From NCBI GenBank assembly GCA_018819135.1, contig JAHJQK010000030.1, positions 1 to 64,000 on the forward strand: 64,000 nucleotides of DNA, given 5' to 3'. Shown here in pieces: positions 4,479 through 42,499 of this stretch. Within the stretch, counting starts at the first letter, position 1. Each line of letters starts with the position of its first letter. Under the pieces are notes generated by a model, which saw only the letters and a program-made list of their open reading frames with translations, was not told the DNA's origin and did not search any database. Source of the DNA: Pseudomonadota bacterium (GTDB lineage: Bacteria > Desulfobacterota > SM23-61). Made by a program: the position numbers and the translations under genes.

Positions 4479-5896
4479 TTACATCGCTCCTTTTCCCGAT
4501 AGAACTACCGGGATCGTTTTAAGGAGGATCTTAACATCCAGCCATAGCGACCAGTTATCAATATATTCCAGGTCCAGCTTCATCCAATCATGGAAGGCGA
4601 TTTGATTCCTTCCACTCACCTGCCACAGACCCGTAATCCCAGGTTTCATGCTCAACCTCCTCCTCTGCCATCCTTCATATTTTTCAACTTCTTCAGGAAG
4701 AGGGGGTCGGGGCCCCACAAAGCTCATCTGTCCCCGGAGAACGTTAAAAAGCTGAGGAAGCTCATCAAGGCTGGTTTTTCTTAGAAAGCGCCCGACGCGG
4801 GTCACCCGGGGATCTTTATTATTTTGAACACTGGTCCATCCATCAGATTAAAAGCCGTTAACTTGCTTTGCTGCTGTTCTGCTTCCTGAACCATGGAGCG
4901 AAATTTATAGAGAATAAACTTCCGACCATTCAACCCACAGCGGACCTGCCGATAAATGATCGAACCGGGACTGTCTAAGCGAATCAACATGGCAATCAAC
5001 AATATTAACGGGGAAAAAATTAAGATCAGAACGATACTTCCCCCAAAATCAAAAATTCGACGCAATAGCAGTAGTAATTCGTTTTTGGGAGTCGTGGAGA
5101 AGGTGAGAAGAGTAAAACCCTCGAGGTTGTCCAGGTGAATTTTGGAAAGAATATGGGGGAAAAAATTGAGAATAACCCGGGCGGTGATTCCACGCTCCTC
5201 ACATATAAGAAACAAATTCTGCATGGTTTTGAGCTCTTCTTGTGAGATGGCAAAAATGACTTCATCCACCACCTCTTTTTCCAAGATTTGGGGAAGATCT
5301 TTGGCCATTCCAAGCACAGGGTATCCATTCAATTTTAGGAGAGGGATAGGATCTTCGGTAGAAAGAAAACCTAAAACTTGCAGACCCATATCGCGATGTT
5401 TTTCGATGGCGTGAGCCAGGGTTCGGGCCTGTTTATCCTTGCCGATGATCAAGATAATCCGGGAACTATCGTTTTTACGACTAAGAAATTGGATGGCTTT
5501 TCTACAAATCCATCGGAAAAAGATTACCAAAAAGAAATCAAAGAGGGCAAAGGAGAAGATAAAAATCCGGCTGACGTAAACATACTTCAGAGCAAAAACG
5601 ATGAACCCAAGAAGGAAGGAAGAAATAGAGACCGCTTTGAAAATTAACCAGGTTTCCTTCCAAAAACCATGGCCTCGCCAAAACCGGTAGAGTTCAAGCA
5701 GGTAAAAAACAAGAGACCATATTGGAATAATCGGGATGAGGAGATTCAAATACCAGGAGAAAGGAAAGAGGGCGGCATAGAAATCTTCGGGAAGGGTACC
5801 ACGAAATAAATAAGCGCCCACAAACGCTAAGATAGTGGCTATGAGGTCCCCCAATAGGAGGGCCAAAGAACGAATTTTATTTCGTTGACTTACCAT
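4479..5896 (-). pseudogene. frameshifted polyprenyl-phosphate sugar phosphotransferase (WbaP/WcaJ type)
   Basis: This gene should start surface glycan assembly by moving a sugar-1-phosphate onto undecaprenyl phosphate. The first part (4802-5896) encodes a membrane region of about four to five helices, a nucleotide-binding-like middle domain and the start of the transferase domain (LYKFRSM, DGPVFK). The frame then fails near 4820 and reaches a TGA. The second part (4479-4805) continues in another frame with [22 protein letters not shown] and [14 protein letters not shown]. Comparison with the family indicates loss of one base in the A-rich run that follows GPVFKI. The joined product would be about 470 residues, normal for the family. 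A sequencing error in the A/T run is the main alternative. Confidence 0.85.
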
Positions 5897-6339
5897 TCAC
5901 TTCCCTTCTCCGCTCTAATCGCTGTCTCAACCATTTTAGATGCAATCTCAAACGTTTCTTGAGCCATCTTTATTGCTCTTATTGCTTTGGCTTCATCATA
6001 AATTTCTCTCGGTGTTTTCAGGCCAACTTCGTCCCCATAACTGGTGAGAATATGTTCTTTAACTCCGAACTTTTCAGTTAATTCTGCTAACCTTCTCATC
6101 ATCCTTTTCTGTTCGTCTGATATGGCCGCCGAAATTAATTCGAGAATGCTCCCGGCAAGATCGTGAGTTTTAGCCACCGGCCCGAATAACCCAATTACAC
6201 ATTTAGCTGAATTTTCAACCGAAAGCTGTGCACTCAAAGCTGCTTTATTCCAGCGGCCGTGGTCGTTTTCGAAAATCCCGTCTTCCATATGTTCGCGAGC
6301 TAATTTTAACCTATATTTTGCATCTTCAAATGGTGTCAT
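5890..6339 (-). CDS. HEPN-domain protein
   Basis: About 149 residues, all-helical, with the HEPN family pattern: an N-terminal YRLKLAREHMEDG helix, the SVENSAKCVIG helix and the AKTHDL motif. HEPN proteins are usually RNases or adenylylation targets paired with MNT nucleotidyltransferases. The start is set at the ATG at 6339, which overlaps the MNT stop as ATGA; an upstream GTG at 6348 is also possible. Many family members have an arginine 4-6 residues before the histidine of KTHDL; here the preceding segment is GLFGPVA, with no arginine, so RNase activity is doubtful. The 3' end overlaps the sugar transferase start by 7 bp. Confidence 0.8.
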   Translation of the reverse strand: MTPFEDAKYRLKLAREHMEDGIFENDHGRWNKAALSAQLSVENSAKCVIGLFGPVAKTHDLAGSILELISAAISDEQKRMMRRLAELTEKFGVKEHILTSYGDEVGLKTPREIYDEAKAIRAIKMAQETFEIASKMVETAIRAEKGSEW

Positions 6340-6827
6340 TTTTCCCACTCAATTTTCCATGCCCCAGGTCTCGGAGGGTTCTTCCATTTCCAGCTAAAAT
6401 TCCCTTTTTTCTCCTCCCTTTGCAATCCATGTTTTCTAATGATTCCCCGAATTTCTTTTAGCTTTGATTCCACATACTCATCTCTATCAAAAAGAACAAT
6501 TCCATCAAAAGCAATGTCGAGATAAATGGGCCTCAGGTTCCTTTCAAATTCCTCCCTCGTTCGGATTATAGGGGAAACGGATCTGATTCCACTCTTGAAA
6601 AGGATATTTTGAAAAGATATGGTCCGTTCCACTGGATTATCAGGAACGCCATCGGCAAGGATAAAGACATCCCAGTCGCTAACGACTTTGCCTTCCCGCC
6701 TTGCCTGGGAGCCAAAAAGGACAACACCCCAAAGGTTCCCGCCCAAAGCCCCGGTCAAAGCTTCAATAAGCTTCTGCACAAAAAGATCTTTCCTATATTC
6801 TTTTTTCAATCCTTCTTGCCCACTCAT
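6336..6827 (-). CDS. MNT-type nucleotidyltransferase, partner of HEPN gene
   Basis: Minimal nucleotidyltransferase of the polymerase-beta fold. The active-site pattern is visible as LFGSQARREG followed by VVSDWDVFI, giving GSxAR and DxD. The rest of the 163-residue protein has DIAFDGIVLFD, typical of this group. It forms a two-gene module with the HEPN protein, joined by a 4-bp ATGA overlap. In known HEPN/MNT pairs the MNT protein neutralises the HEPN toxin by adding AMP residues; that role is inferred here. The module lies inside a decayed polysaccharide region. The 225 bp upstream (6828-7052) contain no gene I can support. Confidence 0.85.
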   Translation of the reverse strand: MSGQEGLKKEYRKDLFVQKLIEALTGALGGNLWGVVLFGSQARREGKVVSDWDVFILADGVPDNPVERTISFQNILFKSGIRSVSPIIRTREEFERNLRPIYLDIAFDGIVLFDRDEYVESKLKEIRGIIRKHGLQREEKKGNFSWKWKNPPRPGAWKIEWEK

Positions 6828-7052: not shown

Positions 7053-7430
7053 TCAATATTTTTTATCTATTTTTTGATAATTCCCAAGGTCGCTATCCAC
7101 CATTTCTCTTATCAGATCGGCGAATTGATATTTGTTTTCCCAGCCTAATTTTTGTCTGGCCTTACTGGCATTGGCGACCAGATCATAGATTTCGGCCGGA
7201 CGGTAATAAGTGGGGTCGGAGATTACGTATTCCCGGTAATCTAATCCAACATATTCGAAAGCAATTTCTAAAAATTCCCTGACCGAATGCCCTTCGCCCG
7301 TTCCGACCACATAATCATCAGGGGAAACAGCCTGTAACATTAACCACATCGCTAAAACATAATCCTTAGCATGGCCCCAATCCCTCTTGGCACCCAGATT
7401 TCCCAGCCTTAATTCCTTGGTCACTACCAA
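7053..7430 (-). pseudogene. 3' remnant of GDP-mannose 4,6-dehydratase
   Basis: Only the last 125 residues remain. They begin near LGNLGAKRDWGHAKDYV, a signature segment of Gmd, and continue with VGTGEGHSVREFLE, YYRPAEIYDL and KARQKLGW, all typical of the Gmd C-terminus. The NAD-binding GxxGxxG domain and the catalytic YxxxK tyrosine (about the first 200 residues) are absent, so no activity is expected. The gene would have made GDP-4-keto-6-deoxymannose for GDP-fucose, GDP-rhamnose or perosamine. It is followed within 30 bp by the Wzm remnant, which points to a lost O-antigen or capsule operon. Confidence 0.85.
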
Positions 7431-7456: not shown

Positions 7457-7666
7457 TTATAGAATAAGAAAATGTCTCGGAAAGCGAATCTTTTTTATGA
7501 GGTTAACATTACCAATAAGGGCTCCTGTAGACATGGTGATCGAAGCAGAAAACCAATTCCAAGGGAAAAGGGCAGCAAGGAGAAAGAAAGTGTAATTCTC
7601 CATCTGAATCCTCATAAATATCTTGAAGGCAACAAAAAGGACCAGGGATAGAAGAATGGGATTCAA
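7457..7666 (-). pseudogene. fragment of a polysaccharide ABC-2 permease (Wzm type)
   Basis: A 69-residue hydrophobic piece with the recognisable Wzm stretch NYTFFLLAALFPWNWFSASI, then TMSTGALIGNVNLIKKIRFPRH. Full-length Wzm permeases have about 260 residues and six helices; here only the second quarter remains. Upstream codons can be read as GIFWSLLNPIL, showing that the gene was cut close to 7680. Downstream the frame ends at about 7457 before the remaining helices. No cognate Wzt ATPase is found in the window. Confidence 0.75.
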
Positions 7667-7803
7667 TAATGACCAAAAGATGCCATTACCTTAGATTCGA
7701 GCTTTTCGCGCTCTTTTAATGCGTCGGAAGGCCGATATTCACGCCATTCCCTCGGACTCAATTCCAAGGCCGTCTTAGCCAAGGCAAACCTACCTTTCTC
7801 CAA
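7663..7803 (-). other. short ORF, possible truncated gene start
   Basis: TTG-started frame of 46 residues directly after the stop of the gene at 7804. The peptide (FALAKTALELSPREWREYRP followed by a charged helix-like stretch) looks like a genuine protein N-terminus, with a resemblance to the leading segment of some stand-alone nucleotidyltransferases, but I cannot confirm that. It ends where the Wzm remnant begins, which suggests a deletion or insertion junction near 7680 fused two unrelated genes. Confidence 0.35.
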
Positions 7804-8169: not shown

Positions 8170-8589
8170 TTAACCCAATATTTGTCGAATTTTTTCCTTC
8201 TCGTAATAAGCGAGATCTCCCGCCCTTCGCAATATATAGATCTCATTTTCGGCCTGCCTGTCCGGGTCTCCGCAGTAAATCAATTCACCCCGGATGACAT
8301 CCAAAGCTAAAAAGGGTCCCGCTTCCGGAAGAACAACGATATCCGCCCGTGGAATTGATAAAAGGTCTTCCAGCTCTATAGCCAATTGCACTTTATCTTT
8401 AACGCTGAGAGATCTTCCGCAAGCCGGCCTAACGCCAATATCAACATCTGATTTGGGGAACTGGCCAGCTACTTCCCTTCCGCGTATTTTTGCGGCAATT
8501 TCAAGAGCCCGGCTACCGAAGACGTACATTTCTTCTATTGCATACCGTTTACAAATTTCTTCTATTTGTTTATCGAAAGTTTCTTTCAT
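8170..8589 (-). CDS. MNT-type nucleotidyltransferase, no obvious HEPN partner
   Basis: A 139-residue minimal nucleotidyltransferase. The MYVFGSRAL segment gives the GSxA motif and SDVDIGV gives the DxD metal site; a 20-residue insert containing KIRGREVAGQFP lies between them. PRADIVVLPEAGP adds the third acidic strand. Such proteins normally pair with a HEPN/DUF86 gene; the next gene downstream (7804-8007) is not recognisably HEPN, so this is an orphan or its partner was lost in the rearrangement at about 7680. It is a different subfamily from the MNT gene at 6336-6827. Confidence 0.8.
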   Translation of the reverse strand: MKETFDKQIEEICKRYAIEEMYVFGSRALEIAAKIRGREVAGQFPKSDVDIGVRPACGRSLSVKDKVQLAIELEDLLSIPRADIVVLPEAGPFLALDVIRGELIYCGDPDRQAENEIYILRRAGDLAYYEKEKIRQILG

Positions 8590-8781: not shown

Positions 8782-9294
8782 TTAAAGAACAGGCTCTACG
8801 CTGGCGCCTTCAATTTCCACCGCAACCGATCTCTTCAGAAGATCAATGGAGATAATCAGTCTTTCTCTCCCCTCCTTGATTTTTACCAGAAAGCCTTCGC
8901 AATCTTTCAAAGGACCGTCGACGACCCGGACAAGCTGTCCTTCTTTCAAATAAGGAAAAGGAGATACGGCCGCCATGCCGTTCAATATCTTTTTTACGGA
9001 TTCGATCTGGGTTTCCGGGACAGGGATTGGCCCCGTTTCATTCCCTAAAATTTTTACCACTCCCGGAGTCTTCAATATTTCCAGCCATATGTGATGGGTA
9101 AGATTTTCATGCACGAATAGATATCCTGAGAAAAGGGCCTTCTGAATCTTTTTCCGTCGATCTTTCCGCCTGCTCCAAACTTCTAATTTAGGAAGAAATA
9201 CATTAATTTTCTTGTCGCTTAACCGCTGATATACGAAATCTTCATGGCGGCTGCGCGTATATAAACAATACCAGCATAAAGGACTATTTTCCAT
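8782..9294 (-). CDS. NusG-family transcription antiterminator (UpxY/RfaH-like)
   Basis: About 170 residues with an NGN domain (WYCLYTRSRHEDFV, KINVFLPKLEVWSRRKDRRKKI, ALFSGYLFV) and a C-terminal KOW domain (KEGQLVRVVDGPLKDCEGFLVKI). Specialised NusG paralogues of this kind ride on RNA polymerase and let it read through long polysaccharide operons. The ATG at 9294 has a good GAGAGA ribosome site; a TTG at 9306 would overlap the rfbD stop as TTGA. It ends the rfbABCD-type operon and precedes only broken polysaccharide genes, so its original target operon may be the decayed one downstream. Confidence 0.85.
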   Translation of the reverse strand: MENSPLCWYCLYTRSRHEDFVYQRLSDKKINVFLPKLEVWSRRKDRRKKIQKALFSGYLFVHENLTHHIWLEILKTPGVVKILGNETGPIPVPETQIESVKKILNGMAAVSPFPYLKEGQLVRVVDGPLKDCEGFLVKIKEGRERLIISIDLLKRSVAVEIEGASVEPVL

Positions 9295-9302
9295 TTTCTC
9301 TC

Positions 9303-10136
9303 TCAAGCAAGATATTCTTTCAATGCCTCTTCCCAGTTCCTCATCTTCTGACCCACGAGGGTTTCGAAGCGATGGCAGTTGAGTATAGAATTCGCCGGGC
9401 GTTCGGCAGGACGGGTTAATTCAGCCGAGGAAATAGGAATGATTGAAATGTGGTCTATATTTTTTTCTCTTAGAATTCGGCGAGCAAACTCATACCAGGT
9501 ACAGGAACCAGAATTGGTGATATGCAGGATTCCCTTCGCCTCTTTCTCCAATAATTTCTCAATGGCCCAACTCAGGTCTTTGGTAAATGTCGGGGCTCCC
9601 CGTTGGTCATTCACCACTCGCAGTTCTTCCTGTTGAGCTGCCAACCGAAGGATGGTATCCACAAAGTTTTTCCCGTGACGGCCAAAAAGCCATTCCGTAC
9701 GGATGATGAGATGATCTCTTAGAATTTCCTGGACGTAATGCTCTCCCAAAAGTTTAGAACTTCCGTGAACATTCAGGGGATGGGGAGGGTCTTCTTCTCG
9801 ATATGGGGCAGAAGATGTTCCATCAAATACGTAGTCCGTACTCAAATGGATCATTCTGGCATTAATGGCTGCACATCCAGCGGCTATATTCCTGGCTCCG
9901 TCTGCATTAACAGCAAAAGCCAATTCCTTATTGGACTCACACCCATCTACATCGGTGTAGGCTGCGGCATTAACTACGACCTGCGGGCGCAGGATTTCAA
10001 TCTCTTTTTGTACCCGGTGCTGATCCGTAATGTCCAAATCTTCTATGTCCCGGGCCAAAACTTGGTGTTTCACTGACAGGGCTGGAACAAGGTCTTTTCC
10101 CAGCATTCCCCGGGCACCGAATACTAAAACTTTCAT
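9303..10136 (-). CDS. rfbD: dTDP-4-dehydrorhamnose reductase RfbD (RmlD)
   Basis: Last step of dTDP-L-rhamnose synthesis, NAD(P)H-dependent reduction of dTDP-4-dehydrorhamnose. Short-chain dehydrogenase fold with GARGMLGKDL at the N-terminus, NAAAYTDVDGCE, STDYVFDGTSSAPY and GAPTFTKDL. The start is the ATG at 10136, which overlaps the rfbB stop by 4 bp; the open frame extends further upstream but only as a shadow of rfbB. An oddity is the catalytic YxxxK motif, which reads HGSSK in place of the usual YGxSK, a CAC codon where TAC is expected. That change should weaken or abolish proton donation. Length 277 residues, normal for the family. Confidence 0.93.
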   Translation of the reverse strand: MKVLVFGARGMLGKDLVPALSVKHQVLARDIEDLDITDQHRVQKEIEILRPQVVVNAAAYTDVDGCESNKELAFAVNADGARNIAAGCAAINARMIHLSTDYVFDGTSSAPYREEDPPHPLNVHGSSKLLGEHYVQEILRDHLIIRTEWLFGRHGKNFVDTILRLAAQQEELRVVNDQRGAPTFTKDLSWAIEKLLEKEAKGILHITNSGSCTWYEFARRILREKNIDHISIIPISSAELTRPAERPANSILNCHRFETLVGQKMRNWEEALKEYLA

Positions 10137-16461: not shown

Positions 16462-17406
16462 TTATTGATTCATCTGAATACTATTCAACACCGCCTCGAA
16501 AACTTTATCGACCTCTATCCTGGTAATATCTTTTCCCTCGCCAATCAGGGAAATATGGATCAATCCTTTGTTGGGAGACGGTACTGCCTGTTTCAAAATT
16601 CCCTGATGCGCATCTCCCCATAAAGAAATAATCGTTATTGGAAAAAAAACATCGAGGTAGTAGGTAAGGGATAACAATCCTCCATCTGGCGCAATCAGGA
16701 TTTTACAACAATTTTTAATTAACGGTAACACCTCCAGTATAGAGGTCTCCCCTCTGAGGTCGATAAGGGATGGATGTTTCAGGAAAGGCGTTTTATGCTG
16801 GCCCAATAACAATACGCCTACATTGGATTGGTGTAATATTCTTTCCAATAACTTTTCCCAGTTGGCCAAAGGCCAGTCTTTATTGTAGCCATAAAATTGC
16901 TGGGTTTCCGTGTGGAGGTGAACGCCAATATTCAGCCGAGATTGACAATTCATGTTCAACCTTTTCCATAAAAGGTCATAATCACTTTTCCAGCTCATTT
17001 TGGGAATAAGGTTATCGATCTGCCACTTCAGCCATTTCGTGGGATTGACGTCCAGCAACACAATATCATAGTCCTCCTGCTTTAGGTTTAGCCTTCGGGC
17101 TGTATCATCGAAATCGATTGGGTTCTTTCTTTGCCACCAGGGAACGGCTATTACGTTGGTGCCAGCAAGCAGGGAAAAGGCATCGGCAAGCTCTTTCCTG
17201 GTAAGGAAGGTAATTTGGGCATCGGGTATATATTTTTTAATCCGGAAGACCATTCCGTAGAGACCCAGGGCTATATCTCCCAATCCGCGATTCCATAAGA
17301 TGAGGAATCGCTTTTTCCTTTCCCGCGCTGCTTTTTTCAGCGAGATGTCGAATTTGTTTCTTTCAAGTTTCCGGAGGAAATTTCTTATCATTCCGTACCC
17401 GGCCAA
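16462..17406 (-). CDS. GT9-like glycosyltransferase (heptosyltransferase-related)
   Basis: 314 residues. FLILWNRGLGDIALGLYG near the N-terminus resembles the RxxGDxxL nucleotide-sugar/acceptor loop of GT9 enzymes, and the C-terminal half has VGVLLLGQHKTP, LIDLRGETSILEVLPLIKNC and IAPDGGLLSLTY, which correspond to the GT9 pattern ending in D(S/G)GLxH. The histidine normally found after GL is replaced by serine, so it is a divergent member. It follows the GT2-methyltransferase gene by 66 bp in the LPS core cluster. Confidence 0.7.
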   Translation of the reverse strand: MAGYGMIRNFLRKLERNKFDISLKKAARERKKRFLILWNRGLGDIALGLYGMVFRIKKYIPDAQITFLTRKELADAFSLLAGTNVIAVPWWQRKNPIDFDDTARRLNLKQEDYDIVLLDVNPTKWLKWQIDNLIPKMSWKSDYDLLWKRLNMNCQSRLNIGVHLHTETQQFYGYNKDWPLANWEKLLERILHQSNVGVLLLGQHKTPFLKHPSLIDLRGETSILEVLPLIKNCCKILIAPDGGLLSLTYYLDVFFPITIISLWGDAHQGILKQAVPSPNKGLIHISLIGEGKDITRIEVDKVFEAVLNSIQMNQ

Positions 17407-17472
17407 CCACCAAATATTGCTGGATCAGAAAATTTTCCAGTTTGTTGCAAGATAACCAGTTTAAAAATTTCA

Positions 17473-18801
17473 TCAAAGGACTAGCCTTTTTTTCCCTTGG
17501 ATTTTTTCAACTTCATACCCGGCGATGGCCAACATATTTCTTATGGTCGCCAGGGAAAAAAAGCGCAGATGGTCTTTATCCAAGATGCCATCTTCCCGGT
17601 ACAGCCATCTGTCCCGAACCGTATCTTTTAGAACTTTATAGTGACGAATATTGGGGATACTGCATATAATTCTCCCCGTCCCCGTAGGAGAACAATGATG
17701 ATGGAATTTTTTTAAAACCGTCCATGGATCCTTGAGGTGTTCCAAAATATCGGCAAAGATGATCGAGTCAAAATGGATCGGATTATCGAAAACATCATTC
17801 TTTTGTTCAATATCGGTAACAATAACCCGATCCAGATTTGTTTGAGCCTCGCCGGCAATTTCTTCATTGATCTCAACTCCCCATACAATCAAATTTTTAT
17901 CTCTTTCTTTTAAAATTTTCCCCAGCCCTCCCCGGCCGCATCCTACGTCCAGGATAAAGCGCGCTCCCTTGGGGATCAGTCGCTCAATGTCCCGCCGTTC
18001 ATTGCGATAATAATCATACGGCCGAAGCTTGGCGAAATCATTGGACAAGCGAAAACAATCAATTTTCTGCCTCCACTTTTTCTGAAACAATTTTATGTTG
18101 TGCCGGGTCGTCTTTTTCTTATACCGCCCTCCTTTAACCTTAAGGGATACTTGCTCGTAATGGGTTAGGACACTATCCGCGCAAAACATTACTTTCCATC
18201 CCATTTCGCGAACCGCAAAGCATAAATCGATATCTTCCGATCCATGAATATACCTTTCATCAAATCCCTTTACTTTTTCAAAAATATTCCGCCGGATAAG
18301 CAGGGAAGCCCCGGTTACTGCCTCCCGCTCACCGGAAATTTTTGCCGGCTTAATATCGCTGGGGTATTTTTTAAAGATATGGCAGGAATTTCCCCGCCAG
18401 TCGAACATGACCCCTATGTGTTGAATCGTTCCGTCAGGGTATAAAAGCTTACTGCCAACAATGCCACAATCCGGATGTTGCAGCAGGAGTTGAACCATAG
18501 GAGAAAGCCAATTTTTATGCGCCAAGATATCGTTGTTTAAAAACAATAGGAGATCCCCTGTGGCCTGTTTCGCAGCCTCGTTGTTGCCCTTGGCAAAACC
18601 AAGATTGCCGGGGCTGCCAAAAACTTTATGGGGCAAAGTCGATAAAAATTCTTTAGTTCCTTTTTCGGTCGAGCCGTTATCCCATACGATAACCTCGTAG
18701 TTGGGGTAGGAAGTATTTTCCGTAAGGGATTGAAGGCAGTTTTTCAAATAAGCCAATTGGTTCCAATTCAGAATGATGATGCTTACTTTGGGAGTGTTCA
18801 T
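17473..18801 (-). CDS. GT2 glycosyltransferase fused to SAM methyltransferase
   Basis: About 442 residues from the ATG at 18801, which overlaps the ligase stop as ATGA. The first half is a rhamnosyltransferase-like GT2 domain: SIIILNWNQLAYLKNCL, VWDNGSTEKGT, LLFLNNDI, and EDIDLCFAVREMGW. A basic linker (KKWRQKIDCF) leads to a class I methyltransferase: RFILDVGCGRGGLGKILKE (motif I, about residue 290), VTDIEQ, and FADILEHLKDPW with the C-terminal region ending in SIPNIRHY and DHLRFFSLATI. The pair probably adds a sugar and caps or methylates the chain end; that is inference. No broken junction is seen, so it is a real fusion. Confidence 0.85.
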   Translation of the reverse strand: MNTPKVSIIILNWNQLAYLKNCLQSLTENTSYPNYEVIVWDNGSTEKGTKEFLSTLPHKVFGSPGNLGFAKGNNEAAKQATGDLLLFLNNDILAHKNWLSPMVQLLLQHPDCGIVGSKLLYPDGTIQHIGVMFDWRGNSCHIFKKYPSDIKPAKISGEREAVTGASLLIRRNIFEKVKGFDERYIHGSEDIDLCFAVREMGWKVMFCADSVLTHYEQVSLKVKGGRYKKKTTRHNIKLFQKKWRQKIDCFRLSNDFAKLRPYDYYRNERRDIERLIPKGARFILDVGCGRGGLGKILKERDKNLIVWGVEINEEIAGEAQTNLDRVIVTDIEQKNDVFDNPIHFDSIIFADILEHLKDPWTVLKKFHHHCSPTGTGRIICSIPNIRHYKVLKDTVRDRWLYREDGILDKDHLRFFSLATIRNMLAIAGYEVEKIQGKKRLVL

Positions 18802-19979
18802 TCTTTCGTTCTCCATTTTGCAGAATATCCCCAAAGGAGGCCGGTCAGGATCATGAAAGCAATGGCGTGTTCATGATGCAAGGTGGTGTCGAAAACTCCC
18901 CCAATAAATACAACGGCAAACCCTCCGAATGATCCGTATTTAAGTGCTTTTTCCAGCGGGGTCTTCCCTTGAATACGCCACCAAATAAAAAGATAGCCCA
19001 ACAAGATCACCAAAACAGACAAGAGCCCCCAAAGTCCTTGCTGCGAGGCGGTTTGCCAATATAAATTATGAGCGTCAAAATAAGTTCTACCGGCATCGTG
19101 GATTATATCAGGAGGAAAGGTATATTGAAAATGATTCAGGCCGATACCCAAAAGGAAATTTTCCTGGAATAATTTAAAGGCATGTTCCCATAAATACAAT
19201 CGACTAACCAAAGAGGCTGTTATAAAAATTTTGGTGCGCATGGGTTCATAGAATAGGGCGATAATGAAAGTGAGTCCGAGTAGAAGGAGGAAAAAAATAC
19301 TCATTTTTAGAGATTGCTTGGAGCTGAGGATTAAGATGAGAAAGAAAAATACAAGCCCTAAAAAGGATGCCCGCATGACCGTCATCACCGCTGCCGTTAA
19401 CGTTATCAAGGAGCAAAGGCCGAGGAGAAACCGCCAAAGCCTCTTTTCCTGGGAGGAAAATAACAAGGTGCTAATCATGGAAGTGAAGGCAGTGATAAGG
19501 TACATAGCCGTATAGTTCTGGTTTCCCAAAGCCCGGATTTCTATTGGCTTTTGCATTTGAGTGGCATAGTAGATTCCCCATAAGGAAGCCAAGGCCGTTG
19601 ATAAATAGAATCCCTAGAGCAGGAAATGAATTTGTTTTTCCTGGTTAAAGCTACAGGCCACTCAAAAGGGGATGGCGTAAAATAAAATATTATTGAATCC
19701 GTCCATACTTTTCAGAGTATCGGCCGCGAACCAACTGCTAACCATGGCCGAAGAGAGAAGCAGAAATAAACCGTAATGGACAATTGATAACCGGACCTCA
19801 ACTTCATGGCGAAAAATCTGGATAAGAAAAATCAACAACCCAAAAAATATTCCAATTTCTTTGCCGGTCGCGGAAAAAGGAAGAGCAATAACCGTTAAAA
19901 ACATTCCGGCCCATTTCAGCCGATCCAGCAAAGAAGGAACGGGTCTAACTATATTTTTTTGCATAAAAGAGCTTTCCAA
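18798..19979 (-). pseudogene. O-antigen ligase-like membrane protein (WaaL family) with two in-frame stops
   Basis: A single frame of about 393 codons encodes a polytopic protein with the O-antigen ligase layout: several hydrophobic helices, a periplasmic loop with LYLWEHAFKLFQENFLLGIGLNHFQ, and DAHNLYWQTASQQG, matching the Wzy_C family (the conserved H of DAHN and G of GIGLNHF). It is interrupted by TGA at 19662-19664 and TAG at 19614-19616, both in frame. Each would be TGG (Trp) before a single G-to-A change. The two open pieces are 19662-19979 and 18798-19592. The ligase, and with it attachment of O antigen to the core, is probably inactive. Confidence 0.8.
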
Positions 19980-20902
19980 TCTTGAATGGCGTGGATAAGG
20001 GTTGCGGCCCGGTGGATATAAGTATGTTGAGCCAGTATTTTCTTATAGCCGTTCTCCGCAATTCTTCGCCTCTCGTCAGGAGCGGCTAAATAATATTTTA
20101 TTTTTTCAAGGCAGTCCGCCAAATCCTTGAACATGACGATCTCTTCCCCTTCCTTAAAATCGGCCCGCCCGTGTCTCCGTTCATCCGAAAGCAGAAAGCC
20201 GCCACAAGCCGGGATGCCGTAGCATCTCTCCGGCAATCCCCAACTTTTTTCTCCAGCAAGATCCGCTGCGCAGCCAACATTCAAATTGATCCTGCTTTTT
20301 TGGATAAGATTCACTTGGGAGTCAAAATCCAAAAAGCGGCTATCGAGAAAGCGGTAAGTAATCCGATGCTTCCCCAATAGATGGCCGAGGGAGGAAAGAA
20401 ATTCAGCCCTTGCTCTATGTTCGGGATATTTTTTCTCATCGATGTTTCCCAGAAAGGAAACGTCAACCTCATATATCGCTGGATCGCGCAGATTTTCCCA
20501 AGTAAGATTCCGTAAATTATAGCGACTGACCCAGGCAGCATTAGGGAGGTAAAGGATTTTTACTTGCGAATTGTTCAGTCCTTGAAGGGAATGCGATGCG
20601 AAAATATCCAGCCAAAGTTTTTTTTTCAGGCAAGTGAGCTTCCATTGGCTGGCCCCCACGTTAGGCAAATCCAGGCACCAGGTGATTCGGGGGATGCCAT
20701 ATTTTTTTAGCTGCCATGCCAGGGAGGAAAATTTCCATTCCCTTTTCAAAATTTGCTTGGTTTCAAAAATGATCGCATCAACTTGACTGGCCAATATATC
20801 CTGGACGCTCCATAAATTATTCACAACGGAATGACCCAGGGTTTGGAGAGCTTCCTCCAGCCTTTCGTTTTGGGCGCGGTAGTTAAGAAGGATTCTCATC
20901 AT
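19949..20902 (-). CDS. CgeB-like glycosyltransferase
   Basis: 317 residues. MMRILLNYRAQNERLEEAL starts the N-terminal domain; the C-terminal domain holds VSFLGNIDEKKYPEHRARAE, SRINLNVGC and WGLPERCYGIPACGGFLLSD, the pattern of the CgeB/spore-maturation GT1-like group (a Glyco_trans_1_2 domain). No membrane segments. Sugar donor not predictable. It overlaps the ligase by 31 bp and the upstream GT9 gene by 20 bp, so it belongs to one long LPS-core operon. Confidence 0.8.
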   Translation of the reverse strand: MMRILLNYRAQNERLEEALQTLGHSVVNNLWSVQDILASQVDAIIFETKQILKREWKFSSLAWQLKKYGIPRITWCLDLPNVGASQWKLTCLKKKLWLDIFASHSLQGLNNSQVKILYLPNAAWVSRYNLRNLTWENLRDPAIYEVDVSFLGNIDEKKYPEHRARAEFLSSLGHLLGKHRITYRFLDSRFLDFDSQVNLIQKSRINLNVGCAADLAGEKSWGLPERCYGIPACGGFLLSDERRHGRADFKEGEEIVMFKDLADCLEKIKYYLAAPDERRRIAENGYKKILAQHTYIHRAATLIHAIQDWKALLCKKI

Positions 20903-22022
20903 TCCTTTCCGATCCTAAAAACCTCTCCGCTGCTGTAACGACTTCTTCTGCAGTAATCTGCTCCAGGCAGACGGGTTGATGGCAATTTTTCGCTAAGCAC
21001 GGCGAACACGTCCTCGGTTTTTCGATTACCAAGGAGTTGGAATCAAAATAGGGGCCGCAGATTCTGGGGTCCGTTGGAGAAAACAAGGCAATCGTCGGTA
21101 TTTTGAGAGCCGAGGCAATATGCATCAGCCCGGTATCGTTGGTAATGAAAAGATGCAATTTTTCTATTAAAGCAGCCGTTTCCCGCAGAGAAAGCTTTCC
21201 AGCGGCAGAGACGGAGTCTTTGATCTGATGGGCAACCTCTTCGGCAACCTCTTTTTCCTTCTCGTCCCCCGTAATAATCGAGCGGCACCCGAATTCCGTC
21301 CTAAGAATGTTTCCGACTTCAATAAAGTTCCTGGCTGGCCAGCATTTAAATGGTTTTTGAGCTCCAGGATGGAGCCCGATGATTGGGCCAATGGGAGCGA
21401 TCCCGTGTTCCTTTAGGAAACGGTCCGCCATACCCCTTTCCGAATTGGCGAGGGAAATAGATATTTGGCGTTGAAGAGTCTGGGCGCCGACCTCTTGCAC
21501 AAGGTTTAATCTCTTTTCGATTCCATGGAGATGGGGAGAGTTGGGAATCGCCTTGGTGAGCAGAAAATCCAGTCCCTTATTCTCTCCCTCAATCCCTATA
21601 ATATCGGATGGACCAACAAAATAGCCCAGGGGCCATAAAACCCGGTCAGAAGAATGAAAGATAAAGACTGTGGCAATTTTTCTTTTTCTTAGCTTGCCGA
21701 AGAGGAAAGGCAGCGACCATACCCCCTTGAAACCTCGTCGGAAAATAAAAAATTCATCAATATTGGGGTTATTTTTAAGAGTTTCGAATCCCAAGGGGCT
21801 TACCAGAACCCCCAAATAGCTTTGGGGATACGTATCCTTAAGGGCCTGAATGGCCGGGGTTCCCCAAAGGGTATCTCCGATCCCTGTTGCGCTTACCACG
21901 AGAAACTTGGCGGGAATGCCACCTCGGGGGGATTTCTTGACGAGATGGAAACGTTCGGATAATTGAAAAGCCCTCTTTATGGCCCAATTTTTGAATTCCT
22001 TAACGGTTTTTTTCATCGCCAT
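20883..22022 (-). CDS. GT9 ADP-heptose:LPS heptosyltransferase family
   Basis: 379 residues with the GT9 landmarks: VVSATGIGDTLWGTPAIQALK (acceptor loop), IIGLHPGAQKPFKCWPARNF, CRSIITGDEKEKEV, AAGKLSLRETAALIEKLHLFITNDTGLMHIASAL and FSPTDPRICGP. The TNDTGLMH motif is the conserved ADP-heptose binding signature. A cysteine-rich C-terminal tail (CSPCLAKNCHQPVC) resembles that of WaaF/WaaQ-type proteins. It overlaps the GT4 gene upstream by 10 bp. Which core residue it adds is not determinable. Confidence 0.88.
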   Translation of the reverse strand: MAMKKTVKEFKNWAIKRAFQLSERFHLVKKSPRGGIPAKFLVVSATGIGDTLWGTPAIQALKDTYPQSYLGVLVSPLGFETLKNNPNIDEFFIFRRGFKGVWSLPFLFGKLRKRKIATVFIFHSSDRVLWPLGYFVGPSDIIGIEGENKGLDFLLTKAIPNSPHLHGIEKRLNLVQEVGAQTLQRQISISLANSERGMADRFLKEHGIAPIGPIIGLHPGAQKPFKCWPARNFIEVGNILRTEFGCRSIITGDEKEKEVAEEVAHQIKDSVSAAGKLSLRETAALIEKLHLFITNDTGLMHIASALKIPTIALFSPTDPRICGPYFDSNSLVIEKPRTCSPCLAKNCHQPVCLEQITAEEVVTAAERFLGSERNDENPS

Positions 22023-23116
22023 CTCGTTTCCGGAAAGAATTGGCGATAAAGTTTTTCGATACTGTCCAGCATCCTTTCCATTGAATAAGTGCGCTGGATT
22101 AGTATCCTCCCTTCGTCTCCGAATTTTTTCCCCAGGAGGGGGTTGTGAAATAGATCCATTACTTTTGCGGCGATGGCCTGCGATTCTTGAGGAGGAACCA
22201 AAAACCCGGTTTGACCGTGAATAACCACTTCTTTAATCGCTCCTACATCCGAAGCGACAACCGGCTTTCCCATGGCCATGGCTTGCAGGATTGCCTGGGG
22301 AACTCCTTCATTGGCGGTAGAAGGGTGAACCAATACATCCAGGGACGCGAGCAGTTCAGGAATGTCTTCTCTTTGCCCCAGCATCGTAATTTTGCCGTCA
22401 AGGGCAAGGGCGCGAATCATATTCCTTATTTTATGTAGTTGGGGTCCGTCGCCGATGATATAAAAGCGGGAGTCCGGAATCGCCTTCAAGATATGGCTGA
22501 CGGCTTCAATGAAATAAGAATGCCCTTTCCAACTCCGAAGGACACCCACCATTCCAGCGACAAAACCGTTTCGCTTTAAAACCGGCTTCACTTTTTCGGG
22601 ATTAAACCGCTGGCCATCTACCCCCGTCGGAATCGACCATATTTTTGCGCCGTCAAACCGGAGGTCATGAATCATTTTCTGCCGGATCTCTTCCCCCGTG
22701 GTAACGATGGCTGCAGGCAATATGTTATAAATGAGCCGACTCGCATAGGTATTGCTAATGGGTGTTGAAAGGTGCCGAGTTCTTATCACCACCGGTTTGG
22801 TTTTCGAGAACTTGGCAACGATGGTTGTCACCCAGCTATCCGAAGAGCTATGGGTGTTGACGAGATTGACATTTTCTTTTTTTATCAGGGATGACATTTG
22901 CAAGAGCGCAAGTGGATTCCCCTTCTGAAAATGAAACGGAAGTACTTTGATGCCCTGTTCTTTGGCCCTATGCAAAATATTACTTTTGCTGGGGGCGGCG
23001 ATTATTACCTGATATCCTCTTTTGATCATTCCGAGGGATTCCAGGACAATCCTCATCTCCTGTCCCCCCCATCCTTCAGAGGATTCGGTATGCAAGATGA
23101 TGATCATTTTCCCCAT
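22013..23116 (-). CDS. GT4 glycosyltransferase
   Basis: 367 residues; the family start is probably MIIILHTESSEGWGGQE at 23107 with MGKM as a short lead. GT-B fold with KPVVIRTRHLSTPISN, VRSWKGHSYFIEA-like donor region, RFYIIGDGPQLHKIRNM and the EGVPQAILQAMAMGKPVVASDVGAIKEV block that carries the E-x7-E nucleotide-sugar motif. It is a typical LPS core or exopolysaccharide enzyme; donor sugar unknown. Overlaps the following heptosyltransferase by 10 bp. Confidence 0.88.
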   Translation of the reverse strand: MGKMIIILHTESSEGWGGQEMRIVLESLGMIKRGYQVIIAAPSKSNILHRAKEQGIKVLPFHFQKGNPLALLQMSSLIKKENVNLVNTHSSSDSWVTTIVAKFSKTKPVVIRTRHLSTPISNTYASRLIYNILPAAIVTTGEEIRQKMIHDLRFDGAKIWSIPTGVDGQRFNPEKVKPVLKRNGFVAGMVGVLRSWKGHSYFIEAVSHILKAIPDSRFYIIGDGPQLHKIRNMIRALALDGKITMLGQREDIPELLASLDVLVHPSTANEGVPQAILQAMAMGKPVVASDVGAIKEVVIHGQTGFLVPPQESQAIAAKVMDLFHNPLLGKKFGDEGRILIQRTYSMERMLDSIEKLYRQFFPETRWR

Positions 23117-23173
23117 TTACTTTTATTTCTGCTATAAACTTCTAAGGGTCTAACTCAGGGCATTCTCTCGGAA

Positions 23174-24331
23174 TCATGAGGCCAAGACTTCTTCATAGAT
23201 CCGCATCATCTCCCGAACATTGGATTCCAGATCGATCACCGGCATCGGATTTACGAGCGGGTTCCTACTTTCCCCTCCCCCCCAGTGATCCAGAGCTCTT
23301 TTCAGAATACCCGTCATGGCCGGGATTTCGCGTGGGTCTTCGATGATATAGCCATTTTCCCCGGGTGAAATCAGTTCGGCTACCCCATTCATGCGCGTGG
23401 TGATAACGGGTAATCCGGTCGCCATTGCTTCCGCACAGGCATTGCTGAAGGGTTCGTAAACTGAAGGCAAAACAAAAAGGTCGCCGGCGGCATAGATCTT
23501 TTCTACATCCTGGCGAGGACCGGTGAATATGACCTGTTCCAAGATGTTTAGCCTTCTGGCCATCTTTTGGTATGGGGTTGGGTCGTCTTTCCCCACCACC
23601 AGGAGCTTTATATCCTCTCTCTCCATTGAGGAGAGACTCTTCAAAATGAACGACAATCCTTTCCTTTTAAATCCAGACCCCAAAAAAAGCATAACCGAAT
23701 CAATGTCCTTCAGTCCAAGTTTTCGCCGCATCTCCGGGCGGTATTGAGCTAAATTTTGGGGATTAAACCGCTGCCGATCCACTCCATTGTAAATCACCCT
23801 TATTTTTGAAGCGGGTACCCGATAGTGTTGCATGATCTCTTCTTTCCCCCTAAGGGAATTGGCGATGATCAGCTTCAGCCGGGAAGACTGGAAGAGCTTT
23901 TTCTCCAAAAATAGCAGGGTACGGTGCAGAGGGTTTAGGGGATAGAAATGCCTTTTCCACCAAGGATCTACCTTCTTTCTTTGAAGGAGCCATTCCCGGT
24001 GGCATCCATCCCCGGCGCGGTAAATATCCTGATAAAGCGTCCTTTCAAAGCTGTGAATGATATCAAAGGAATTTTGCTGCATCAAACGTTGGGAAAAAAA
24101 TGCAAAGCTTAAAGCCTCCAGGAAAGAAGGATTGGGGATCATAGGCACCCGGTGAAAGAAAGGCAGAGCTTTTCCTCTCCCCGTTGCCCCGTTCTCGCGT
24201 ATGGGTTCCCAGCGATTGGCGAATACGTGAATTTCGTGCCCATGTCGGCCTAAAAAAGTCACCAGTTGGGATAAATAGCGCTCTGCTCCCCCGTAGGGGG
24301 TGTAGTTTTTCCGGACAAAAGCAATTTTCAT
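23174..24331 (-). CDS. GT4 glycosyltransferase, WaaG-like
   Basis: 385 residues. PYGGAERYLSQLVTFLGRHGHEIHVFANRW is typical of LPS core glucosyltransferase WaaG/RfaG and its relatives (written here only to show the class, residues 12-41). Further motifs: VIYNGVDRQRFNP, MLFLGSGFKRKGLSFIL, LLVVGKDDP and VYEPFSNACAEAMATGLPVI. The overlap with the preceding GT9 gene (4 bp, ATGA-like) indicates coupling. Role in adding a glucose or similar hexose to the inner core is inferred from the similarity. Confidence 0.85.
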   Translation of the reverse strand: MKIAFVRKNYTPYGGAERYLSQLVTFLGRHGHEIHVFANRWEPIRENGATGRGKALPFFHRVPMIPNPSFLEALSFAFFSQRLMQQNSFDIIHSFERTLYQDIYRAGDGCHREWLLQRKKVDPWWKRHFYPLNPLHRTLLFLEKKLFQSSRLKLIIANSLRGKEEIMQHYRVPASKIRVIYNGVDRQRFNPQNLAQYRPEMRRKLGLKDIDSVMLFLGSGFKRKGLSFILKSLSSMEREDIKLLVVGKDDPTPYQKMARRLNILEQVIFTGPRQDVEKIYAAGDLFVLPSVYEPFSNACAEAMATGLPVITTRMNGVAELISPGENGYIIEDPREIPAMTGILKRALDHWGGGESRNPLVNPMPVIDLESNVREMMRIYEEVLAS

Positions 24332-25437
24332 GGATCGCCAAACTCAGAAGGGTTTTCTCCTTTAGGCAGAAATTGAAAGGCGGCTCTTAAAACTTCTTCT
24401 TCAGAAATCTCTTCCAGGCAACGACTCCGCTTACTTCCCTGGCATCCATCCCGGCCGCAAGGGCGACAATCTAAATCCTTTTTTATGACCACATGCCCGG
24501 GGCCCCAAGGCCTCCAGCTAACTTCTCCAGAAGGTCCAAAGAGGGCGATGACCGGTGTACCTACAGCCGCCGCGATATGCATGGGGGCTGTATCCACCCC
24601 AATAAAAAAGAGGCACCGCCGGCTTAAAGCCGCTAATTGCTTTAAACTTGTCTGGCCCGCCAGGTTTAGGGGGTGAGTTTGGCAGTGTTCCAAAATGCGC
24701 TCAATTTTATCCAATTCCTTTTTTTCTGGACCGCTCGTGAGAACCACCCGCACTTTGCCGGTCGCCTGCAATTCGTCGATGACCTTGGCCAGTCCTTCAT
24801 CCCGCCAGCATTTAAAAAGCCAGCGAGAGGTGGGATGAATGTGAACCAGGGGGTCTCGCGCCCCTACCCCTTCCTTCATTAAAAGTTGATCGATGATTTC
24901 TTTATCCGCCGGGGAGAAATAAATTTCCACGCGCTTGTCTGCGATATTCAGTCCGAGGTGGCGGGGGACCTCCAAGATTTGGTCCACGACATGGGCGCTT
25001 CCATTGGGGATGGGAAGTTCATGATTATAGATGAGCTTTTTCCACCACAAGGTGCCATCTCTTTTGGTCAAACCGATTTTTTCGGATGCTCGGCTGGCCC
25101 AGCACAGAAAAGCACCCCGGTCTCCTTCCGTTAGGTTGATGGCTAAATCAAACCCCCGCTGGCGCACTTCACGGAGAAAATTCATTTCTTTCTTTAGCCT
25201 TTGTCCGAGCGGTAAAGATTTCCACGCTGGGTCGAATACTAAGACTTCATTCAGTAATGGATTGCCCGTAAGCATTTCTTCTGTACCGGCATTGACCAGA
25301 GCCGCGATAAAGGTCCAGGGATAAGCTTCCCGGAATGCCCGGATGGTGGGGACTGTTAGAAGCACATCTCCAATGTGGCGAAGACGGATGAGCAAAATCT
25401 TTTTAATTTTTTTATCTTTAAAATCCAGATCCTTCAT
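24328..25437 (-). CDS. GT9 heptosyltransferase, WaaQ-like
   Basis: 369 residues, with KKILLIRLRHIGDVLLTVPTI at the N-terminus, VHIHPTSRWLFKCWRDEG, VRVVLTSGPEKKELDK, LNLAGQTSLKQLAALSRRC and FIGVDTAPMHIAAAVGTPVIALFGPS. The LRHIGDVLLTVPT and HPTSRWLFKCW patterns are those of WaaQ, the heptosyltransferase III of the LPS inner core. The conserved aspartate of GVDTAPMH is present. Overlaps the GT2 gene upstream by 20 bp. Assignment to WaaQ is by resemblance, not proof. Confidence 0.88.
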   Translation of the reverse strand: MKDLDFKDKKIKKILLIRLRHIGDVLLTVPTIRAFREAYPWTFIAALVNAGTEEMLTGNPLLNEVLVFDPAWKSLPLGQRLKKEMNFLREVRQRGFDLAINLTEGDRGAFLCWASRASEKIGLTKRDGTLWWKKLIYNHELPIPNGSAHVVDQILEVPRHLGLNIADKRVEIYFSPADKEIIDQLLMKEGVGARDPLVHIHPTSRWLFKCWRDEGLAKVIDELQATGKVRVVLTSGPEKKELDKIERILEHCQTHPLNLAGQTSLKQLAALSRRCLFFIGVDTAPMHIAAAVGTPVIALFGPSGEVSWRPWGPGHVVIKKDLDCRPCGRDGCQGSKRSRCLEEISEEEVLRAAFQFLPKGENPSEFGDP

Positions 25438-41788: not shown

Positions 41789-42499
41789 TCAGCTGTTCTC
41801 ATGCAACTTCCCATCTACCAGGAGGATCCGGCGGTTCATCCTAACGGCCAGTGCGGGGTTATGAGTAACAACGATGATCGTAATTTCTTGTTCGCGGTTG
41901 ATACGCACCAAAAGGTTATGCACTTCTTCCCCCGTCTTGGAATCCAGATTTCCAGTTGGTTCATCGGCCAAAATTACTCGTGGGTTCATCATCAAGGCTC
42001 TCGCTACAGCAACCCGTTGTTGTTCTCCTCCGGAGAGCTCTCCGGGTTTGTGCAGCAAGCGATCCTCTAACCCCAACTGGACTAATATTCTTTCGCCGCT
42101 TTGGACCGCATCTTTGTAGGCCATTCCTTGAATCAATCCGGGCATTATCGTGTTTTCCAGAGCGGTAAATTCCGGAAGCAGGTGATGAAACTGGAAGACA
42201 AATCCGATGCAGCGGTTGCGCATTTCGGCTAAATTCGTTTCACTCTGATCCAAAAGGTCCAGATCTTGAAAATAGACTTTTCCTTCTGTGGGGCGATCCA
42301 AGGCCCCCAGAATATGTAACAGAGTACTCTTGCCCGCGCCGGAAGCCCCCTCGATCGCCAACATTTCCCCGGCGGTAATGGTGAGGTCAATCCCTTTTAG
42401 GACTTCGATAATTTTGCCGCTATCCCCAAAGATAAAAGATTTTTTCAGTCCTTGGACTTGGAAAAGCGGCTGACTGCTTACCTTGGGGAACAGAATCAG
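41789..42499 (-). CDS. lolD: lipoprotein-releasing ABC transporter ATPase LolD, probable CTG start
   Basis: ATP-binding subunit of the LolCDE-type complex that pulls lipoproteins out of the inner membrane. Walker [17 protein letters not shown]-loop [15 protein letters not shown], signature [15 protein letters not shown], Walker [13 protein letters not shown] and the H-loop THNPALA. The first in-frame ATG (42364) would lose the first beta strands. Upstream codons continue as [15 protein letters not shown] and [17 protein letters not shown], good LolD sequence. No ATG, GTG or TTG start lies between; a CTG at 42499 overlaps the previous stop as CTGA and follows AAAGGAGG at a 7-nt spacing, so CTG is proposed. 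That gives 236 residues. Confidence 0.88.

Follow-up and report, generated by a model that had tools for sequence, protein, structure and literature searches.

It is well known that cultured bacteria can acquire a rough lipopolysaccharide (LPS) by losing waaL, which encodes the O-antigen ligase. An intact ligase of this kind would work at the periplasmic face of the inner membrane, transferring lipid-linked O-polysaccharide to the completed lipid A-core. A structure is available as 7TPG, deposited under the name “putative cell surface polysaccharide polymerase/ligase”, also titled WaaL O-antigen ligase, and originating from Cupriavidus metallidurans. Conserved arginines and a histidine located in a loop are described for WaaL-type ligases (PMC10920833). 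A literature search for waaL pseudogenes with premature stops led to papers on Salmonella and E. coli, and one on Nitrospirota ligases returned nothing. Here, an interrupted ligase gene was analyzed within a stretch of 64,000 nucleotides (the window, positions 1 to 64,000 of contig JAHJQK010000030.1), which belongs to a draft assembly of 4.43 Mb in 222 contigs, 94.44% complete and 8.52% contaminated. With good confidence, this gene can be regarded as a WaaL-type O-antigen ligase gene that has recently become a pseudogene, probably along with the decay of the O-antigen pathway, ordinary recent gene decay being the most likely explanation. The features on which this reading is based are collected in Table 1.

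Table 1. Positions of the ligase interruptions, of the neighboring genes and of the O-antigen gene remnants in the window.
Feature	Position	Strand	Remark
Sugar transferase (polyprenyl-phosphate), split by frameshift	4479..5896	-	two frames, 4802-5896 and 4479-4805
GDP-mannose 4,6-dehydratase family, C-terminal fragment	7053..7430	-	
Candidate Wzm (ABC-2 permease) remnant	7460..7670	-	about 69 residues; ends approximate
GT9-like gene	16462-17406	-	downstream of the GT2/methyltransferase gene
GT2 + methyltransferase protein, open	17473..18834	-	directly downstream of the ligase; same neighbor in L047, L055
Longest open piece left of the ligase, 264 aa from TTG	18798..19592	-	still scores as Wzy_C
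In-frame TAG, codon 117	19614..19616	-	helix 5 of the orthologue model (L046 residue 113)
In-frame TGA, codon 101	19662..19664	-	helix 4 of the orthologue model (L046 residue 97)
Glyco_trans_1_2 glycosyltransferase, open	19949..20902	-	directly upstream of the ligase; same neighbor in L045-L048, L055
GT9 gene	20883-22022	-	upstream of the Glyco_trans_1_2 gene
GT4 gene	22013-23116	-	further upstream; likewise in L046, L047, L055

The original prediction had described a WaaL-like frame open except for one TGA and one TAG, and this was confirmed. The frame occupies the minus strand at 18798-19964, starts with an ATG at 19964 and comprises 388 codons plus a terminator, with no frameshift and exactly two internal stops in the same frame, where a functional ligase would have an uninterrupted one. 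Because of these stops, at codons 101 and 117, no full-length product is expected under normal decoding, and translation would end at codon 101. Over the same stretch, the remaining five frames hold 17-24 stops each. In a first-order Markov control of 5000 sequences, the mean was 16.5 stops and the minimum 5; two stops or fewer were never obtained (0/5000), hence the ligase frame is not due to chance. The GC contents by codon position are.45/.34/.43 upstream of the stops and.42/.38/.49 beyond them, and the sequence between and around the stops can be aligned to relatives. In three neighbor genes, the corresponding values are.49-.52/.34-.41/.48-.51, the GC of first positions in the ligase being somewhat below theirs. 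Direct repeats near the stops are short and imperfect only, and no inverted repeat pair was found near them.

Identification of the product as an O-antigen ligase held on several grounds. Pfam Wzy_C (PF04932) matches residues 184-317 with 58.4 bits for a cut-off of 31.7, and a profile built from 13 relatives together with the window protein, whose stops were written as X, retrieved from the PDB 7TPG (E=1.5e-7) as the sole confident structure. An AlphaFold model, built for the orthologue at locus L046 and not for the window protein (mean pLDDT 89.2), likewise had 7TPG as its best Foldseek match in the PDB (E=4.7e-7, TM 0.68/0.65), followed by the related FtsW (E=1.0e-3) and RodA (E=1.5e-2). This model contains 14 helices of at least 4 residues, with an irregular stretch at 265-296 ahead of the last three; in a hydropathy scan of the window ligase, single helices were not separable. 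The R255 and H299 columns are invariant (9/9 and 14/14 aligned rows), and both residues may be among the conserved loop residues of the published description. Searches against NCBIfam gave matches far under the cut-offs only, the best being TIGR03097 with 36.1 bits for a cut-off of 188.1. Altogether, domain, profile and modeled fold support the window frame as the remnant of a WaaL-type O-antigen ligase gene.

Both stops had been proposed to derive from tryptophan codons, TGA and TAG each lying one G-to-A step from TGG. A contig search with a four-row alignment yielded 37 loci, of which 23 were aligned and 14 more distant ones left out. At codon 117 the proposal stood, with Trp in 16 of the 23 relatives (TGG every time), Arg in six and Ala in one, and with Trp in all six members of the nearest clade, which are 43-47% identical to the window ligase. 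At codon 101 it did not, as none of the 23 has Trp, Phe being found in 17, Leu in five and Ile in one; the six nearest Nitrospirota orthologues (L044-L048, L055) all have Phe there. An earlier and partly overlapping set of 17 homologues had given Trp at codon 117 in seven and at codon 101 in none. A Phe codon differs from TGA at two positions, and one Leu codon, used in L057 and L060, at a single position. Given the Phe majority and the lack of Trp in this column, the TGA codon probably arose through more than one change or by passage through another residue. Both stop columns are open in all 23 aligned relatives, so that uninterrupted orthologues exist elsewhere.

An assembly or consensus error, i.e., an uninterrupted living gene whose stops are miscalled bases or the result of strain mixture, would be in keeping with the fragmentation and contamination of the draft, with the distance of only 48 bases between the stops and with the frameshift that the contig also carries. 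It is nevertheless unlikely, since both stops are substitutions without indel, flanking and intervening sequence aligns to relatives, and the msbA gene of the contig is open and 86% identical in the same-genus genome G001. Besides, one miscall would not turn a Phe codon into TGA, an argument that fails if the lineage had another residue there, given that the Leu codon of L057 and L060 needs only one change.

The two other explanations accept the stops as real. Translation restarting downstream of codon 117 could yield a shortened working ligase, and the 264-aa frame does retain the Wzy_C domain with the conserved R255 and H299 columns. However, helices 1-4 of the orthologue model and the beginning of its helix 5 are missing from this piece, and inspection by eye revealed no strong Shine-Dalgarno-like stretch ahead of the possible starts, so that a working product of this kind is very improbable. 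Decoding of the stops as sense, through suppression or a changed code, would account for a ligase frame that is clean apart from them and appears more remote still. Indeed, the 37 minus-strand frames listed in the window (ligase terminator included) end with TGA in 16 cases, TAA in 14 and TAG in seven; general recoding is rejected because TGA and TAG thereby terminate many other frames, and the 64-kb window holds no tRNA gene with which suppression could be linked.

The age of the ligase pseudogene was then considered from its divergence. Single changes that create a stop represent 162 of the 3474 possible ones in the ligase, and by rough arithmetic some 40 random substitutions would be needed for two stops, a figure whose limits are very wide. 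The branch of the window ligase on a fixed tree reached 0.92, compared with 0.63 and 0.43 for two neighbor genes; the L044 branch in one neighbor gene was 1.09, so that long branches are not unique to the window ligase. The latter departs from 18 of 100 otherwise invariant columns, both stops included, and its six nearest relatives from 2-11. When such departures were compared over four rows, the window GT9 gene at 24328-25437 (GT9c) gave 0.36 versus 0.31 for the ligase. Drift of this extent after the stops had appeared should have left more stops and frameshifts, hence the long branch does not show decay, and the excess divergence was probably gathered mostly under selection, reflecting fast evolution rather than long decay. 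Divergence was not retained as a clock: it is a weak one here, as the window row also branches outside the six nearest relatives.

The ligase is located in an LPS core/O-antigen cluster with GT9, GT4 and GT2 genes and LpxB, LpxI and LpxD; lpxK, lpxL, gmhB and msbA of this cluster were named by reading translations. The order GT9-Glyco_trans_1_2-ligase-GT2/methyltransferase-GT9-like is identical in the window and in the Nitrospirota loci L047 and L055, and L046 agrees with them except that no GT2/methyltransferase match was detected there. The order is not conserved for the GT9 gene at 24328-25437, which in the window lies upstream of both GT4 genes and whose counterpart in L046, L047 and L055 is flanked by the GT4 gene and the following GT9 gene. 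With G005, a member of the family, the window gene shares 69% identity, versus 42-45% with the Nitrospirota loci, and it therefore looks native. In the ligase tree, the window row is placed together with the six nearest Nitrospirota ligases, outside of which it branches; support for this grouping is moderate only (88/86). Either a transfer of the ligase block or shared ancestry is suggested by this position. The Nitrospirota-like neighborhood (16462-24331, minus strand) adjoins lpx, waa and msbA genes whose matches are in the window's own family, and an inter-phylum transfer of LPS core genes is possible at this place. Misbinning of the contig is unlikely: msbA is 78-86% identical across the seven other family genomes, and the series msbA-lpxK-lpxL-waaF-gmhB-GT9 of the window recurs in G001 in unchanged order. 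For lolD (41789-42364), an in-frame TGA was a false lead, being the terminator of lolD itself; an uninterrupted lolD match at E<=1e-60 was obtained in six of seven relatives, and none from G004.

Gene content beyond the ligase supports a decayed O-antigen context. A functional ligase elsewhere in the genome would speak against the loss; no second Wzy_C (PF04932) protein was found in the assembly, the interrupted gene being the only match, although at 94.44% completeness and 8.52% contamination the assembly could lack a further ligase. PF13425 had no match in the assembly either, but was silent in all 14 control genomes, so that its absence carries no weight. The sugar transferase is broken, as had been claimed: its two halves lie in different frames, fit TIGR03025 positions 2-323 and 334-444, and account for every Bac_transf match in the assembly. 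PF01943 (Wzx-type), present in 13 of the 14 control genomes, had no match in the assembly, and neither had PF14524 (Wzt_C), present in two of them; many Wzt proteins are without the PF14524 domain. A single protein matches PF00953; it resembles mraY, next to genes recognized by eye as murF- and murD-like. The claim of a broken Wzm fared less well, as three PDB matches (E 0.31-0.68) point to a candidate remnant for which Pfam gave no match up to E=1. PF01061 has four matches in the assembly, two on contig C54 and one each on C86 and C121; the last two were rejected as Wzm, being by eye generic ABC-2 permeases beside drug-type ATPases. Several glycosyltransferases and sugar-nucleotide genes of the rml, ugd, uxs and galE types are open nearby (the first three named by reading translations, the galE type by scan), so that assembly and decoration of the LPS core would still be possible. 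Ligase function would have been lost in step with the rest of the O-antigen pathway, phage escape, polymer cost and drift being candidate causes, and the predicted outcome, if the assembly is right, is a rough or core-only LPS.

Other genes were observed in the same region. ORFs of HEPN and nucleotidyltransferase (MNT) type (5890-6827 and 8170-8589, minus strand) lie among the O-antigen gene fragments, as if small toxin-antitoxin-like modules had been inserted into the decayed cluster. An open UpxY-family transcription antiterminator (8782-9306, minus strand; NCBIfam 122.2 bits, cut-off 100) heads a run of sugar genes.

Across eight family genomes, Wzy_C has no match in three and is interrupted in two, namely that of the window and G006. 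In the remaining three genomes the ligase diverges strongly from the window ligase, with 23% identity in G002 and no match in G003 and G005. In G006, locus L041 (1019-2466) encodes a Wzy_C protein with a stop, its C-terminal part, judged by eye, likely lying in another frame, which gives the family another broken gene for a ligase or polymerase. With the domain unmatched in three of eight genomes and interrupted in G006, ligase loss may be recurrent in the family, where some absences may reflect incomplete assemblies. Repeated independent loss of O-antigen attachment within this one family of little-studied bacteria is nonetheless doubtful; if true, the pattern would fit recurring selection against long O-antigen and its re-acquisition, e.g., under phage attack. 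Separately, the uninterrupted ligase of L098 (same-genus genome G002, contig C45), which shows the 23% identity, has in its vicinity galE, ugd and uxs genes 77-90% identical to those of the window, and ligases may be swapped between species at this locus.

The window thus offers a plausible natural loss of an O-antigen ligase in a little-studied lineage, and one data point on O-antigen loss. It also carries a warning for annotation, the 264-aa piece still scoring as an O-antigen ligase domain. Compared with the Nitrospirota orthologues (L044-L048, L055), the window ligase lies within 43-47% identity, and its two upstream and two downstream neighbors are those found in L047 and L055; unlike it, the six orthologues have no internal stop, Trp at position 117 and Phe at 101. 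Similarity to WaaL 7TPG is seen in the profile match, in the fold of the orthologue model and in the invariant Arg and His columns, L046 and 7TPG being only 13% identical in the structural alignment, whereas the window copy differs by its interruptions at codons 101 and 117. Finally, the expected end state is that of the rough waaL-loss mutants of well-studied bacteria, i.e., an LPS without O-antigen; unlike in these mutants, the interruption is a natural one, read from a draft genome alone.
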